From the NCBI GenBank assembly GCA_014240285.1, contig JAAZXI010000010.1, forward strand, positions 1 to 35,792: 35,792 bases of DNA, read 5' to 3'. This document shows, in pieces, positions 393 through 7,646 of this stretch; position 1 is the first letter of the stretch; the number at the start of each line of letters is the position of its first letter. This DNA comes from Methanobacteriota archaeon. GTDB lineage: Archaea > Thermoplasmatota > Poseidoniia > Poseidoniales > Thalassarchaeaceae. Both the position numbers and the translations under genes were made by a program. Under the pieces are notes generated by a model. That model worked only from the letters and a program-made list of their open reading frames with translations, searched no databases and was not told the DNA's origin.

Positions 393-3300
393 ATGACAAA
401 GCGCTCAGTGACGTTGATAATGATCGTTCTTCTGTTGTCCTACGCCCCCGTTCCCGACTATTCACCGACTGAGGTCAATCCTATCGTGCAGTCATTGGAT
501 CGCACGGTTGAGAGGGTGGAAATCTCCCCCGACCCTAACAGCATACAGGATCTCGGTTCCCCGCTCATCTACTCCGGCTCTGAGGATCTCAGAGTGATCA
601 GGGCGGACTCCAGCATCGGTGTTTACACCTTAGCAGGGCTACTCCCCTCAGTTCAGATGAGCACTGAACTGACTCAGCCACGAAACGACCTCGCAATCGT
701 CCTCGTTGACGGCGAAGTTGGACTCTGGGAAGCGAGGATGGCAATACTCGAAGTTGGGAATATCGAAGTCAGATCGACGATACCTCCCTCAGGATTCCTA
801 GTGCAGGCCCCGCCCGATGACATCACTGCCCTGTCATTGGTGGAAGAGGTCGAGGCAATTCATATGGTGCCAGCCGGGCTGCTGGTACACCCTGATTTGA
901 GACTGGCCAAAGGGGAGCAGACGCTTCTAGTCGAGGTTCTCGGATGGAAGGACTCAGATTTGAATAGACACGATAAGCCCGGAATGGGCTTTGAGGACAC
1001 ACTGAACATAGCAGCATCGCTCTGGTTGAAAGAGTACTGGTCACCTGAGCCGGGCAGGATGTGGGGACTAATCACTTCAGATGATGTGGATGAAATAGTC
1101 AAACACCCCTCTGTCGCTTATGTCGCTCCTATGCCCGTGCTAGTATTGCATAACGACCAGGCCAGAGTCAACATGGGAATCAATACTGTCGAGTCCACAT
1201 TCATCACCGGATTGAACGGCAGTGGACAGAAGATTGCCGTGGGCGACTCCGGACTCGACGACGACCACGGCGACTTCACCGGCAGAATCGCCGGCTTGAC
1301 TTCAGTCACCCCCGGTGATTCGTCGACAGCAGATCTCTCTGACGGGCATGGCACCCACGTCGCCTGCACGGTTTTGGGTGACGGATTCCGCAGCAGCGGC
1401 ACCTACCAGGGGGTAGCGCCAGAGGCGCAGGTCTATTTCCAAGCGATGGAGGACGATGATACTGGTCATTTGTACAGCTACGGCATCAATAGCATGCTCA
1501 ATTCTGCCTACAACAACGGCGCCCGTTTGCACACTAACAGTTGGGGTGCAGGTAGCGGGAGCGGGAGCTACTCGACCCAATCAGAGGATGCCGACGACCG
1601 TACCTCGACATGGGATCAGTACTGGTCCTACGACGGGATGACTGTTCTGTTCGCGGCCGGCAACGAGAGGAACGATGGAATTTCACCGCCTGGAACTGCG
1701 AAGAACGTCATCACCATCGGCGGTCACAAGAACCGATACAGCGGTGCTCCCGACGAGATGTACTACTGGAGCAGCCGAGGTCCGACGGATGACGGCAGGA
1801 TCAAGCCCGATCTTGTCGCCCCGGGGGACTACGTCCGTTCGTGCAAGTCGCAGGAGGCGGACAGTGCTCAAGGCTCTTGGAGCAACAACTGGTACCTCGA
1901 ATACAGCGGCACTTCGATGGCAACTCCCGCAGCTGCGGGGGCGGCGGTTCTCGTCAGGGAGTACCTGATGGAGGTGATTGGCAGACAGGATCCTCAAGGC
2001 GCTCTGATCAAGGGGCTGATGATACTAGGGGCCCAGGACATGGGTACCCGAGACATACCCAATGATGACGAGGGGTGGGGCCGAGTAAATCTCGTCGAAT
2101 CACTGATTCCAGACAACGATGTCGGCATCTTCGTCGACGACCGCTCGAGACTTTCCAGCGGACAGACGAGTGAGTACTCCTTCGATATCACCCGCGTGGG
2201 CGAGCCGATGAAGGTGGTACTGACTTGGTCCGACTATCCTGGATCATCATCTTCCTCGACCCAACTGAGGAACGACCTCGACCTCGAGGTCATCTCGCCC
2301 AACGGACAGGTCACCTACAAGGGTAATGCCTTCATCAATGGACGATCGGTTACTGGCGGAACCAAGGACTCCACCAACAACGTCGAGGTCGTGTTGATTG
2401 ACAATGCCGCCACAGGGACGTGGACGGTACGCGTACACGACGCCCAGCATGGAGGCGGCAGGACCTGGCAGCCATACGCCCTCGCTGTTCGCGGGGTCAA
2501 TGTCAATGACCTGAGCCCAGATCCAGCTTTTGTACAGAACTCCTTTGAGATATCTTCCCCTATCCCCCAAGTAGGAGAGGAGGTCGATGTCTCCGTCGTC
2601 ATCCAGAATCAGGGTGCCGGTTCGGTTGCCGACCTATCGATTATCGCCCGGGCTGACAACGAAATGCTCGGCACCCGTCAGTTGAGCATGTCTCCGGGGG
2701 AGTCGGCAGTACTCGAGTGGAACTGGACTCCGACTCAGCAGGGAGATGTGGAGTTCACCTTCCACATAGACCCAAGTGACACAGTCGAGGAGGCCTCAGA
2801 GACCAACAACTACCTCACTCAGACTGTCGTGGTAAGTGCACCTGGAGTCAGGGTTTCTTCCGAGCAGGCAACCGTCACCCTTGGCGACGCGACGGACAGC
2901 TCGACCACATGGCAGCTCTTACTGATGAACACAGCTCTATTCGAAACCAACGCGTCAATACAGGTCAGTGACCCCATGCGGATGCAGGACGGAGTGCAAT
3001 ACGACTGGTTCACCTCGTTCACCTCGAATACCTTCAATCTAGAGGCAGCCGAAACCACTTCGGTCAGCCTGACCATGGTCCATGGCGAATCCCCGCCTCC
3101 TGGACTCTACAGCATGATGGTCACTGGCACAGATATCGATAACAGCGTCATCTCGGAGTTAGAGATTTTCTTCGACGTGCCCGTGCTGGCCGAAGCCGAC
3201 ATAGTGATGCCGGGCGAGCATTTCACAGTGAGCCCACTCGATCCCACAGAACTGCAGATCCTAGTCTTCAACGAGGGCAATGGTGCCCAGACCTACGACG

Positions 3301-4886
3301 TGGAACTAATATCCCCAGCCGGTTGGCATCTCGGATTAGACACACTCGGGGCCTTCGCAGGCTCCTCGCATGGCTCTACCGGAACCATGGCTAGGGATGC
3401 CGGCCGGACAATCGACATCACAATCAACCCTCCAGGGGCAATGATTCCCGCCGGCTCAGTGTTCGACGCTGCGATAATTATTCACTCGAGAGTCAGTTCT
3501 GACTCCTGGAGCGAGGACATTTCACTTGTGGTCAAGGCGATTGACGAGGTCAGCACGACACCGTCCTCCGACGGCGCAGAGCACGACATCGCTGCGGATG
3601 CTCTGTTGGAAATCGAGGTGGAGCTCATCAATCTCGGTAATCGGATGCTGGACTTACAGTCGTATATGCGCAATATCCCTGGTGGATGGACTGTATCGGG
3701 AGGGTTGGACACTATCAGCATCCCAGCGGGAGAATCCGGTGTCTGGTCCGTGGCACTACAGGGCAATGGAGTGGCTGTTAGCGGGGATATAAAACTCAGA
3801 TTCGCCACCGATGACGGCTTTTACTTCGACTGGAACAGAACTCTGAACGTCCTTTCAGGTGCAATTCCCACTTTGAGCTTCCACATGGTCGCTTTGCCAG
3901 ACGGAACCAATTCAGACTATCCACTGGGAGTCGGGACCCACCCTGTCGGCGAGCCCGGCTTCGACCTCGCTTGGACTGTTACCAACCAAGGCTCGACGAC
4001 TTGGCATCCTACCACCTATCTTGAGGTCCCGGAAGATGATTGGTCATCATCTTGCTCTGCCCCCTCGGCGCTCTCTGCAGGCGCCTCGTCGACGGTGTGG
4101 TGCACCTTGTTGATACCTCTGTCAGCTGAGGCCACCTCCGAACCCATCGTCACACTGGTGATGCAGGGCGAGGGCATCGAGGTGAGCGACTCGATATCAC
4201 TGTTGGTCGAGTCCGTGGCTAGGGTGAGTTGGACCCTTACCAACCAACCGACAGGGCACGAAGGCTACCCGTCCACATTGTACATCGAATTGGAGAACAC
4301 AGGCAACTCAGATATCTCCTACATCCTTCAGACATCGGGACCTGACGGATGGAATCCTTTGATACTCGATGGCGTGGTGGTCAACCTGAGGCCGGACGAG
4401 GTTCGTAGCCTAAATCTTGGATTCACTCCTAATTCCGGGAATGACGGGATGCTTGTGGTGGAACTGGTCGGAGCGGGAGATGTCGAAGGCTCTTCGTTCG
4501 GTATTGAGATTGATGTACTTCCCGCTGCTAAGGTGCAGGGAACGTCAATTCTAGAGACACTGCTGATTGCAGTGTTGGTACTCGCTCTGGTCGGTGGCGG
4601 TCTCTATGTTTACTCTCGCAGAGGGGGCGATTCCTCAAGTCTGATTCAAAGCGACACACTGGCCAAGATAGCTGACAGTTTTGGGCTGGGTGAACAGCAA
4701 GAAGTGGAGAGTGACGGTATTCCCTGCTGGATCTGCAGCCAGGACATCACACCAGGGGAGGCATGGGCCTGTCTAGAGTGCGGTGCGAGATATCACAGGT
4801 CGGACCAAGTACAGGGCTGTGACATCGTTTCCATGGGGAACTGCCTGCACTGTGACGCCCCGTCTGAAGAACTCGCAGAAGCGTGA
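393..4886 (+). CDS. Secreted subtilisin-family (S8) serine protease with CARDB/NEW3 repeats, membrane anchor and RING-like cytosolic tail
   Basis: A 1497-residue protein. An N-terminal signal segment (about residues 5-20) is followed by a pro-region to about 270. The S8 catalytic domain spans about 275-570, with Asp285 in VGDSGLD, His319 in HGTHVA, oxyanion Asn424 in AAGNE and Ser508 in GTSMATP. A P/proprotein-convertase-like beta domain follows (about 585-705), then several Ig-like modules: a CARDB-type one near 715-820 and NEW3-like ones to about 1380. One membrane helix lies at about 1388-1408. The cytosolic end (1445-1487) holds a zinc-ligand pattern C-x2-C-x11-C-x2-C-x4-H-x7-C-x7-C-x2-C. 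The role is probably extracellular protein degradation by an anchored enzyme. All catalytic residues are present, so it should be active. The tail is odd for a protease: it could bind zinc and a cytosolic partner. ATG start chosen because the signal peptide follows directly. Confidence 0.9.
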   Translation: MTKRSVTLIMIVLLLSYAPVPDYSPTEVNPIVQSLDRTVERVEISPDPNSIQDLGSPLIYSGSEDLRVIRADSSIGVYTLAGLLPSVQMSTELTQPRNDLAIVLVDGEVGLWEARMAILEVGNIEVRSTIPPSGFLVQAPPDDITALSLVEEVEAIHMVPAGLLVHPDLRLAKGEQTLLVEVLGWKDSDLNRHDKPGMGFEDTLNIAASLWLKEYWSPEPGRMWGLITSDDVDEIVKHPSVAYVAPMPVLVLHNDQARVNMGINTVESTFITGLNGSGQKIAVGDSGLDDDHGDFTGRIAGLTSVTPGDSSTADLSDGHGTHVACTVLGDGFRSSGTYQGVAPEAQVYFQAMEDDDTGHLYSYGINSMLNSAYNNGARLHTNSWGAGSGSGSYSTQSEDADDRTSTWDQYWSYDGMTVLFAAGNERNDGISPPGTAKNVITIGGHKNRYSGAPDEMYYWSSRGPTDDGRIKPDLVAPGDYVRSCKSQEADSAQGSWSNNWYLEYSGTSMATPAAAGAAVLVREYLMEVIGRQDPQGALIKGLMILGAQDMGTRDIPNDDEGWGRVNLVESLIPDNDVGIFVDDRSRLSSGQTSEYSFDITRVGEPMKVVLTWSDYPGSSSSSTQLRNDLDLEVISPNGQVTYKGNAFINGRSVTGGTKDSTNNVEVVLIDNAATGTWTVRVHDAQHGGGRTWQPYALAVRGVNVNDLSPDPAFVQNSFEISSPIPQVGEEVDVSVVIQNQGAGSVADLSIIARADNEMLGTRQLSMSPGESAVLEWNWTPTQQGDVEFTFHIDPSDTVEEASETNNYLTQTVVVSAPGVRVSSEQATVTLGDATDSSTTWQLLLMNTALFETNASIQVSDPMRMQDGVQYDWFTSFTSNTFNLEAAETTSVSLTMVHGESPPPGLYSMMVTGTDIDNSVISELEIFFDVPVLAEADIVMPGEHFTVSPLDPTELQILVFNEGNGAQTYDVELISPAGWHLGLDTLGAFAGSSHGSTGTMARDAGRTIDITINPPGAMIPAGSVFDAAIIIHSRVSSDSWSEDISLVVKAIDEVSTTPSSDGAEHDIAADALLEIEVELINLGNRMLDLQSYMRNIPGGWTVSGGLDTISIPAGESGVWSVALQGNGVAVSGDIKLRFATDDGFYFDWNRTLNVLSGAIPTLSFHMVALPDGTNSDYPLGVGTHPVGEPGFDLAWTVTNQGSTTWHPTTYLEVPEDDWSSSCSAPSALSAGASSTVWCTLLIPLSAEATSEPIVTLVMQGEGIEVSDSISLLVESVARVSWTLTNQPTGHEGYPSTLYIELENTGNSDISYILQTSGPDGWNPLILDGVVVNLRPDEVRSLNLGFTPNSGNDGMLVVELVGAGDVEGSSFGIEIDVLPAAKVQGTSILETLLIAVLVLALVGGGLYVYSRRGGDSSSLIQSDTLAKIADSFGLGEQQEVESDGIPCWICSQDITPGEAWACLECGARYHRSDQVQGCDIVSMGNCLHCDAPSEELAEA

Positions 4887-4911: not shown

Positions 4912-4952
4912 ATGCCCGAAGTCCTTAGAGGGGCGGTTATGTCGGAGTGCCG

Positions 4953-7646
4953 ATGAAGCGTAGTTCATCTGTAATCATCCTCACGGCGATGCTGCTTCTC
5001 ACAATCGCATCACCGCTAACCGCAGCAGCGGCCTCAGTGTCGCTTTCAGCCAACCCCACGGCACAGGAAGCGACCACAGATGACGAAGCGGAGTACGATA
5101 TCATCGTGACCAACGACGGGGATGAGGACATCACAGTGACCCTCAGCACTCAGCAGGGCAACGACTGCAGTGGTTTCTCCTCCGCTCTGGATCAGCCCAC
5201 GGTTTCGGTGAATGAAGGAGAATCTGAAACCGTCCTGCTCACGGTTTCGGTGAATGATCAGGCTGATGGTGACTGCGAAACGACGGTCAACGCTCAGGCA
5301 ACAGGGGGCATAGGATCTCCGGCCAGTGACGATGTGACTGTGACGACAACTGCCGGCGATGGTGGCGGACTCTACTCTGTGAAGATGACTACCGATGAGC
5401 AGTTGAAAATCTACGACGGCGACTCGATCGAGTCCGACAGCGTGGTCTGGGACGTCGAGGTCGAGAACAACGGCGAGCAGCAGGCTAACGTCCAGTTGGA
5501 GATGACTTCGGACAATGACTGCGAGTCTGACACCCTTGATGCCACTGTCGACCCGCAGGTCCTGCAACTGGATCCTGAGGACACGGAGACCGTAGAAGTG
5601 ACCGTTGACGTGCCCGACGGGAGCTCAACCGAGGCGGGGGATCACTGCTTCATCCTCAAGGCCACCGTGACTAACGACCCCAATGCTGCTGACCAGGCCG
5701 AGGACAACATCACCTTGACTCTCAAGATTCCCGAGCGCAAGGAGTGTGACCCCGACCTACAGTTCACCTCGCACAACCTTGATCCGGGCGATTCGGCCAC
5801 CAACTCGTTCGAAGTCGAGAACATCGGGAACACAGAGTGGACCGTGACTGCCAATGCACAGGCTCAAAACTCCGACTACGATATCACAGGATGGGTGGAT
5901 TTCGACAGCCCCCTAAGCAAACTCCTCTCCGAGCCCGGTGGTTCGCAGGACAGCCACACGTTCACCTTCAGCGTCACCCCCGATGACTCCGTCGAGTCCG
6001 GGACACAAGTGGGAATCAAGATTCAGGGACGTGCTGGGACTTCGGTCGGCTGTGAGCAGATTCTGACTGTCACAGTTGGTCAGAGTCATGATGCCATCAT
6101 GAGTCTGAGCAAGAACAAGCTCAGCAACGTTGAGCCGGGCAGTTCTGACACAGTCACAGTTCAGATCATCAATCAAGGCAACGGTATGGAGACCATGTCT
6201 ATCGGCGCTACAGGACTGCCTCCTGGGTGGCAGATCTCTTTCTCCCAGACTTCGGTTACTGTTGGCAGTTCGCACTCTGGCAACAACCAAGAAACAGTGA
6301 CTGCGGAGGTATTCATACCTGAGGACGCGAGTGCGGCTGAGGACACGGTCATCACCTTCACCGTTGGACGCGGCGGAGGCAGTTCACCTTACGACACCAA
6401 GGAACTCACAGTTTCAGTGGCTGCGCGTCATAGTGTCACTACCTCGATCCTTTCGATCCAGCAGACCGGTAAAACAGGTCAGACGGTCCAGTTCCCCATC
6501 GATGTGACTAACTCAGGAAACATCCAGGACACTTTCAAGCTACAGACCTGCGACCCGGGAGACCAGACCGGATGTAACTCCCCGATGTGGGAATCGTCAT
6601 TCTCCGACTCTCAGGGGAACACAATCTCGCAAATCATCCTCGATCCAGGCCAGAAGCAGACGGTCTATCTCGACATCCTAGTCGAGGGCGAGGAGGACGC
6701 TGACTCGGCCAGCGTGCTTGCACGGATAGCGATCTATGGGACGGCCGAGGCGGACGAACACACTGTCAGTGTGGTGGTTTCAAACTACAACTACGCGATG
6801 GCCATCTCCCCCCAGAGCCCCGGTGAGATACCGGACCTGATTGGTGCGACCCTTCCTCCAGGAGGTTCCATGGCCGCCTCGTTCTGGGTCGAGAACACCG
6901 GAGACTACCCCGGTGGAGACACGGCGGTGATTACCGTTACTGGCATGGAGTCGTCTGTGCTGAGGACGATGACAATCGAAGGTGTCGAGATTGATGGAAC
7001 AGTGATGATTGGGATGGGAGAGAGAGTCCTCGTCGAAATTCAGTTTGACATTCTCGAGGGAGTTGCCAACGGCGTCGCAGGCGTAGTCAAGGTGAGCGCT
7101 TCGTCGGAGAAGAACACAGCTCAGAGCACTTCGGTCGACGTCGTGGTTGAGGTGATGACTGTTCACGATCTCAGATTCACTCTCGAGGGTGAGGACGAAC
7201 AGACCGCCGAGTACCCTGACAAGGCCTATTTCACTCTCTACATCACCAACTATGGTAACACCTTAGAAGACGTACAAATTATCTCGAGCGAGTCTCTGAG
7301 GGGTTGGGCAGTCAATGTCGATTTCGACGAGTTTGAACTTGAACCAGGGTCGACCAAGGAGGTCCAGATTAGTGTTACGCCGCCCAGCGATTTGCTCGAT
7401 GAAGATACCTATCAATTCACGGTCACGGTGCAGCCCGAGGGTCTTGCCGTTGCAGGCGAACCTATCGATTTGACAGTGACCTCACAGATGCCATCGACCT
7501 TCATCGGCCTGTCTGAGGAAATGGCTCAGGCCCTCGTTTACGGGTCTATTGTTCTGGGCGCCATTTTGGTCATTGTTCTATTCTTCCGCTCGCGCTCGGA
7601 GAACCGCAGAATAGTCGAAGCACTGGAAAATCAGTTCGAGGACTAG
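4953..7646 (+). CDS. Exported Ig-like (NEW3/CARDB) repeat protein with C-terminal membrane anchor
   Basis: About 897 residues from ATG 4953; a GTG two codons earlier (4947) is possible, but the ATG puts Lys-Arg directly before the hydrophobic signal segment (about 7-25, ending in an Ala-rich cleavage region). The body is a tandem series of roughly seven beta-sandwich repeats. Recurring phrases such as ENNGEQ, ENIGNT, INQGNG, TNSGNI, ENTGDY and TNYGNT mark the turn typical of NEW3/CARDB-type domains, and most repeats end with a Glu/Gly-Ser plus V-x-V strand. Scattered Cys pairs may form disulfides. A single membrane helix lies near the C-terminus (about 865-885), followed by a charged cytosolic tail. 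No catalytic motif is visible; a structural, adhesive or S-layer-associated role is likely. It lies 66 bases after the protease and may be co-displayed with it. Confidence 0.8.
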   Translation: MKRSSSVIILTAMLLLTIASPLTAAAASVSLSANPTAQEATTDDEAEYDIIVTNDGDEDITVTLSTQQGNDCSGFSSALDQPTVSVNEGESETVLLTVSVNDQADGDCETTVNAQATGGIGSPASDDVTVTTTAGDGGGLYSVKMTTDEQLKIYDGDSIESDSVVWDVEVENNGEQQANVQLEMTSDNDCESDTLDATVDPQVLQLDPEDTETVEVTVDVPDGSSTEAGDHCFILKATVTNDPNAADQAEDNITLTLKIPERKECDPDLQFTSHNLDPGDSATNSFEVENIGNTEWTVTANAQAQNSDYDITGWVDFDSPLSKLLSEPGGSQDSHTFTFSVTPDDSVESGTQVGIKIQGRAGTSVGCEQILTVTVGQSHDAIMSLSKNKLSNVEPGSSDTVTVQIINQGNGMETMSIGATGLPPGWQISFSQTSVTVGSSHSGNNQETVTAEVFIPEDASAAEDTVITFTVGRGGGSSPYDTKELTVSVAARHSVTTSILSIQQTGKTGQTVQFPIDVTNSGNIQDTFKLQTCDPGDQTGCNSPMWESSFSDSQGNTISQIILDPGQKQTVYLDILVEGEEDADSASVLARIAIYGTAEADEHTVSVVVSNYNYAMAISPQSPGEIPDLIGATLPPGGSMAASFWVENTGDYPGGDTAVITVTGMESSVLRTMTIEGVEIDGTVMIGMGERVLVEIQFDILEGVANGVAGVVKVSASSEKNTAQSTSVDVVVEVMTVHDLRFTLEGEDEQTAEYPDKAYFTLYITNYGNTLEDVQIISSESLRGWAVNVDFDEFELEPGSTKEVQISVTPPSDLLDEDTYQFTVTVQPEGLAVAGEPIDLTVTSQMPSTFIGLSEEMAQALVYGSIVLGAILVIVLFFRSRSENRRIVEALENQFED

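Follow-up and report, generated by a model that had tools for sequence, protein, structure and literature searches.

Membrane-anchored subtilases and prokaryotic RING-like domains are both already known. The membrane-anchored S8 subtilases of archaea and bacteria combine an S8 domain, Ig-like repeats and a C-terminal helix, and ubiquitin-type cascades with small RING proteins are present in Aigarchaeota and Asgard archaea (PMC5654768). The Poseidoniales, which have no cultured members and are thought to live on proteins, rank among the most abundant archaea in the surface waters of the ocean (PMC6461757). A cytosolic RING-like module on a membrane-anchored S8 subtilase was not found described in the literature searched. 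The RING-like tail on such an enzyme, its order-wide conservation and its replacement by recurring tails appear to be undescribed within that literature, from which the main survey of RING domains in prokaryotes, published in 2011 (cited in PMC4506424), is absent.

The window, i.e., the whole stretch of 35,792 nucleotides that was analyzed, encodes a protease that shares S8 domain, Ig-like repeats and C-terminal helix with these subtilases and differs from them by an additional, predicted cytosolic RING-like module. The features of the locus are as follows:

393-4886, forward strand: S8 subtilase, 1497 aa, C-terminally membrane-anchored (PF00082, E 2e-43; CARDB, PF07705; triad motifs)
393-455, forward strand: N-terminal signal-like hydrophobic segment, MTKRSVTLIMIVLLLSYAP... 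(read directly from the translation)
1218-2081, forward strand: peptidase S8 catalytic domain, residues 276-563 (Pfam PF00082)
4548-4613, forward strand: predicted single C-terminal transmembrane helix, about residues 1386-1407, followed by RR (KD19 maximum 2.44; K/R counts)
4614-4724, forward strand: predicted flexible cytosolic linker of about 37 aa (length and sequence differ among orthologues; dN/dS 0.18)
4725-4853, forward strand: predicted RING-like eight-ligand zinc module (ligand pattern; AlphaFold pLDDT 85; RING fingers in Foldseek)
4854-4883, forward strand: short conserved C-terminal extension DAPSEELAEA, consensus end [FL][VIL]xA (alignment A1, columns 58-61)
4947-7646, forward strand: Ig-like anchored surface protein of the choice-of-anchor T family with a short tail lacking zinc ligands (NF041740, 79.9 bits, cut-off 70)

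In the open reading frame 393-4886 the PF00082 match covers profile positions 1-288 of 288, and the motifs VGDSG, GHGTH and GTSMA at residues 283, 318 and 506 of the translation supply the D, H and S of the triad, so that the protein is an S8 peptidase by full domain and by triad; a CARDB Ig-like domain (PF07705) is found by Pfam in the same frame. Together with the signal-like N-terminus and the one C-terminal helix this agrees with the original prediction of a secreted, anchored protease. The KD19 hydropathy exceeds 1.6 solely in a segment starting at residues 1379-1391, directly upstream of the zinc module, and the window protein has no second helix of comparable hydropathy on this scale, while the ectodomain maximum of some orthologues is as high as 1.95. 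All 64 full-length orthologues carry more Lys and Arg in the 15 residues that follow the helix (mean 2.9) than ahead of it (mean 0.5), and the tail is therefore predicted by the positive-inside rule to be cytosolic, as had been proposed, with no prediction of an outside placement. The window's genome encodes a second large anchored S8 protease of 1596 aa (L225, G000 C35:5500-13500) that ends in a further, different cytosolic tail, GLPEGWTMEQWTAYGHLWWEQN, and has an adenylate kinase-like ORF on its 3' side.

Positions 4725-4853 of the forward strand translate in frame to CWICSQDITPGEAWACLECGARYHRSDQVQGCDIVSMGNCLHC, near the C-terminal end of the protease. The ligands are C1445, C1448, C1460, C1463, H1468, C1476, C1484 and C1487, and the proposed order C-x2-C-x11-C-x2-C-x4-H-x7-C-x7-C-x2-C within a 43-residue tail is reproduced exactly by the translation. 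Seven of the eleven cysteines of the protease fall within this module, and a relaxed form of the ligand pattern occurred in none of 20,000 shuffles of the protease sequence. The orthologue set comprises 80 loci from a whole-protein search (37-88% identity), those with names being assigned to Marine Group II/Candidatus Poseidoniales and the nearest ones coming from Thalassarchaeaceae genomes. Sixty-five of these loci have tails with all eight ligands, four have tails with unreadable bases, nine have other tails and two are cut by contig ends; tail retention is slightly favored in this set, as one of the six search seeds lies inside the tail, and the deep as well as the tail-less orthologues were recovered through seeds outside of it. 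Every readable tail of the RING-like type (65/65) holds the eight Cys/His ligands in four pairs, and a partly lost zinc site was found in none of the 80 loci, so that the ligands, which the original prediction required to be conserved in orthologues, are indeed retained. Across orthologues the spacing varies slightly, within C-x2-C-x10/11-C-x2-C-x4-H-x5-7-C-x5-7-C-x2-C. Exceptions come from further genomes, one tail (L122, genus g15) having CFSC and an H-x2-C spacing and another (L117) having Cys in place of His. In alignment A1 (42 rows) the Trp of CWxC, a GAR[YF]H block and a terminal A are kept among the non-ligand residues; the rows were selected by the eight-ligand pattern, and the invariance of the ligand columns in A1 is thus partly by construction, the independent count being that of the 80 loci. 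The dN/dS ratio is about 0.08 in the tail and 0.18 in the adjoining linker, the tail being more strongly constrained than this connection to the membrane.

From the ligand pattern we infer that the tail binds zinc. One role that was considered is that of a zinc or redox sensor informing the outer protease of zinc or of the thiol state in the cytosol, which would be in line with the eight conserved ligands, with zinc limitation at the ocean surface and with the differences in zinc transporters among Poseidoniales genera (PMC6461757). We regard such a sensor as very improbable, no mechanism being evident across a single helix. Furthermore, eight-ligand sites of this kind usually hold zinc tightly and structurally, which also speaks against sensing.

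The predicted fold was analyzed with two tail models from separately aligned families, both of which carry no zinc as AlphaFold models. The AlphaFold2 model of the window tail has a pLDDT of 85 and a pTM of 0.69, and the model obtained from the alignment of the other family alone has a pLDDT of 88 and a pTM of 0.70. For both models the top Foldseek matches against the PDB are RING fingers (RING1B, BMI1, PCGF5, 3lrq) with probabilities of 0.97-1.00, TMq of 0.54-0.60 and weak E-values (best 0.016), as expected for a domain of only about 60 residues, and rubredoxins stand lower in the list. The proposed RING-like zinc module is supported at the level of modeled structure, and the tail is likely a RING-like treble clef. 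In Pfam the best matches are Prok-RING_1 and DZR (double zinc ribbon), reached at E<=1 by 40 of the 42 members of A1 and below the curated cut-offs; the window tail scores 20.8 bits for Prok-RING_1 (PF14446), the cut-off of which is 29.1. C2H2 zinc fingers and rubredoxin, found in a single-sequence PDB search, match via the CxxCG stretch and were judged to be chance matches.

Eukaryotic RING E3 ligases (RING1B/BMI1/PCGF5, TRIM, RAD18) and the small RING protein of Caldiarchaeum share the predicted fold and the eight ligands with the tail, the Foldseek matches include E3-E2 complexes and RING E3 cascades are known in archaea (Aigarchaeota, Asgard; PMC5654768), all of which would fit an active E3-type module that recruits an E2 or a ubiquitin-like transfer enzyme to the membrane. 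The tail differs from these ligases as the E2-contact residues and the linchpin Arg are not conserved (alignment columns 11, 49 and 52) and as ligase partners were not seen. In alignment A1 the second Cys is preceded by a mix of residues (I, S, A, V, T or G), Pro follows the seventh ligand in 5 of 42 rows and Arg/Lys after the last Cys is not conserved; these three positions we take to be the E2-contact sites of RING ligases. No ubiquitin-like cluster lies beside the protease gene, the locus offering one gene only. A search for E2 enzymes (UQ_con) gave no match in 60 Poseidoniales genomes, which adds little since the control genomes gave no match either. An active ligase is thus extremely unlikely in our estimate. 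As the tail stays below the Prok-RING_1 cut-off and does not have the residues that RING ligases use for E2, we describe it as RING-like and not as a demonstrated ligase.

Of 194 Poseidoniales genomes, 166 are matched by the tail profile, in nearly every case through a single strong, protease-sized match, and the RING-like tail is present in both families; further matches in the same genomes are weak, partial and zinc-ribbon-like. The original prediction had suggested looking for the same tail on other membrane proteins of the lineage, and none was found to carry it, the search returning one strong copy per genome, always on this protease. The RING-like tail is thus specific to this protease, as judged from about one strong match of protease size per genome. 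One genome (G186) has two protease-sized ORFs with RING-like tails (L230 on C97, L127 on C139), one of them resembling the window's genus and one more distant, which may be a paralogue or reflect a mixed bin. In the sister order of the class neither a tail match nor a full-length orthologue was found, only distant S8 matches, and elsewhere in the phylum the tail profile picked up nothing closer than distant Prok-RING_1 or zinc-ribbon domains, carried by unrelated proteins. Plasmid records gave no tail match, and viral contigs gave no match to the strict DNA pattern of the tail. The profile also finds a protein of about 1590 residues from another Thermoplasmatota family (L239, L240) with a clear Prok-RING_1 domain at its C-terminus (E 4e-16).

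Nearly all loci with sufficient flanking sequence have the gene order small upstream gene, protease, Ig-like anchored protein, nuoA and nuoB. This shared order indicates that the proteases of the 80 loci are true orthologues at one genomic place, and it is the same with a RING-like or a PGWLWD tail. In nearly every Poseidoniales locus that was checked, the gene of the Ig-like protein (4947-7646) separates the protease from the nuo operon. Positions 95-322 of the window encode the C-terminal part of the conserved upstream gene, which is about 200-240 aa long, has no Pfam match and is present beside the protease across the order.

Where a genome lacks the RING-like tail, the protease is retained with another C-terminal end. 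Genera g4 and g10 have PGWLWDPxxEEWVPDP, part of g2 has ...LQSTGWSASQSKALIDLSKR, g20 has ...YVKQLISTGYPEDKAREHAMKH and g18 has a His/Gln-rich end. A protease-core tree (FastTree, tail and helix left out; long branches L062, L152, L046 and L151) requires a minimum of four changes of the RING-like label and places each alternative tail in a single clade; this count rests on well-supported clades, L151 being a possible frameshift and L152 standing alone. At this one locus, unrelated short tails have thus taken the place of the RING-like tail at least four times, and the RING-like tail is favored as the ancestral state because it is found in both deep branches of the core tree. Three of the replacement tails recur on other proteins: PGWLWD tails on an anchored beta-helix protein of about 1450 residues and on an anchored protein of about 400 residues, GYPEExAR (GYxEExAR) tails on an FG-GAP protein of about 2200 residues in the genomes checked, and the STGWSxxQS tail, with the same KRKLFSKDEI-type approach, on an anchored calcium-repeat protein of the same genome. 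This reuse of three replacement tails, like the architecture, the ligand conservation, the predicted RING-like fold and the tail replacement at a syntenic locus, can be read from the sequences. In the window's genome other anchored surface proteins (L222, L223, L224) end in PGWLWD or GYxEExARxYA. No Pfam family covers these recurring short cytosolic tails (PGWLWD, GYxEExARxYA).

That unrelated tails can substitute for the RING-like tail would agree with a mere folded stop, which fixes the anchor and prevents pull-through or C-terminal degradation, so that any compact or short tail suffices, and at least one orthologue (L151) seemingly ends without a folded tail, unless a frameshift accounts for this. 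We consider a mere stop unlikely, as the conserved non-ligand CW, GARYH or GARFH and terminal A suggest a specific surface and as the replacement tails are recurrent motifs and not random ends. Our preferred reading, held with evenly balanced confidence, is that the tail serves as a zinc-stabilized docking module in the cytosol and is one of a small number of exchangeable tails specific to the lineage. The protease would be exported and held by one C-terminal helix, the catalytic and Ig-like domains lying outside, and behind this helix a cytosolic linker of mostly 33-68 residues would display the compact two-zinc RING-like treble clef as a stable knob for protein-protein docking and not as a ubiquitin ligase. 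Through the interchangeable tails, Poseidoniales surface proteins with a C-terminal anchor would be marked for one shared process in the cytosol, by which the anchored enzyme might for example be assembled, placed, turned over or controlled.

We infer the docking role because a folded module with conserved non-ligand residues is predicted at the inner face of the membrane and is exchangeable for recurring short tails. The putative coupling to an inside partner, which the original prediction had suggested, gains indirect support from the replacement of the tail at the same locus by short tails that recur on other anchored surface proteins. The different tails may serve a common or related process, and they might equally mark different fates. 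Against docking, the exchange could mean that the job of the tail was lost or changed rather than kept, and the RING-like tail is confined to the protease, unlike the three replacement tails. A tail code, in which each exchangeable cytosolic module is read by a dedicated factor and which would constitute an undescribed system for sorting, assembly or turnover, with the RING-like module ancestral on one protease, strikes us as a decidedly speculative and quite unlikely extension. Physiologically, an order-wide protease encoded beside the genes of respiratory complex I and bearing a conserved cytosolic zinc module suggests an inner handle on an outer enzyme. With the swapping of tails, the idea that surface proteins of archaea bear a set of cytosolic tags becomes testable, and the tails supply bait sequences for finding their readers.

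Among known domains, Prok-RING_1 (PF14446) has the order C-x2-C...C-x2-C-G-x2-[YF]-H in common with the tail, whereas most tail members show H-x5-7-C instead of H-x2-C, the spacing found in genus g15, and the tail is placed behind the membrane anchor of a subtilase. The best whole-module profile match to a solved structure is the variant RING of NSE1 (2ct0, 5hvq), which shares C-x2-C...CxxCGxRxH at a non-significant E of 0.1, while the tail has no SMC5/6 context. In the choice-of-anchor naming of NCBIfam, one type of ectodomain ends in different C-terminal sorting or anchor elements. In analogy to the tail replacement described here, C-terminal elements are exchanged behind the ectodomain of these surface proteins; in the Poseidoniales protease, in contrast, the membrane helix is retained and the cytosolic part behind it alone changes.
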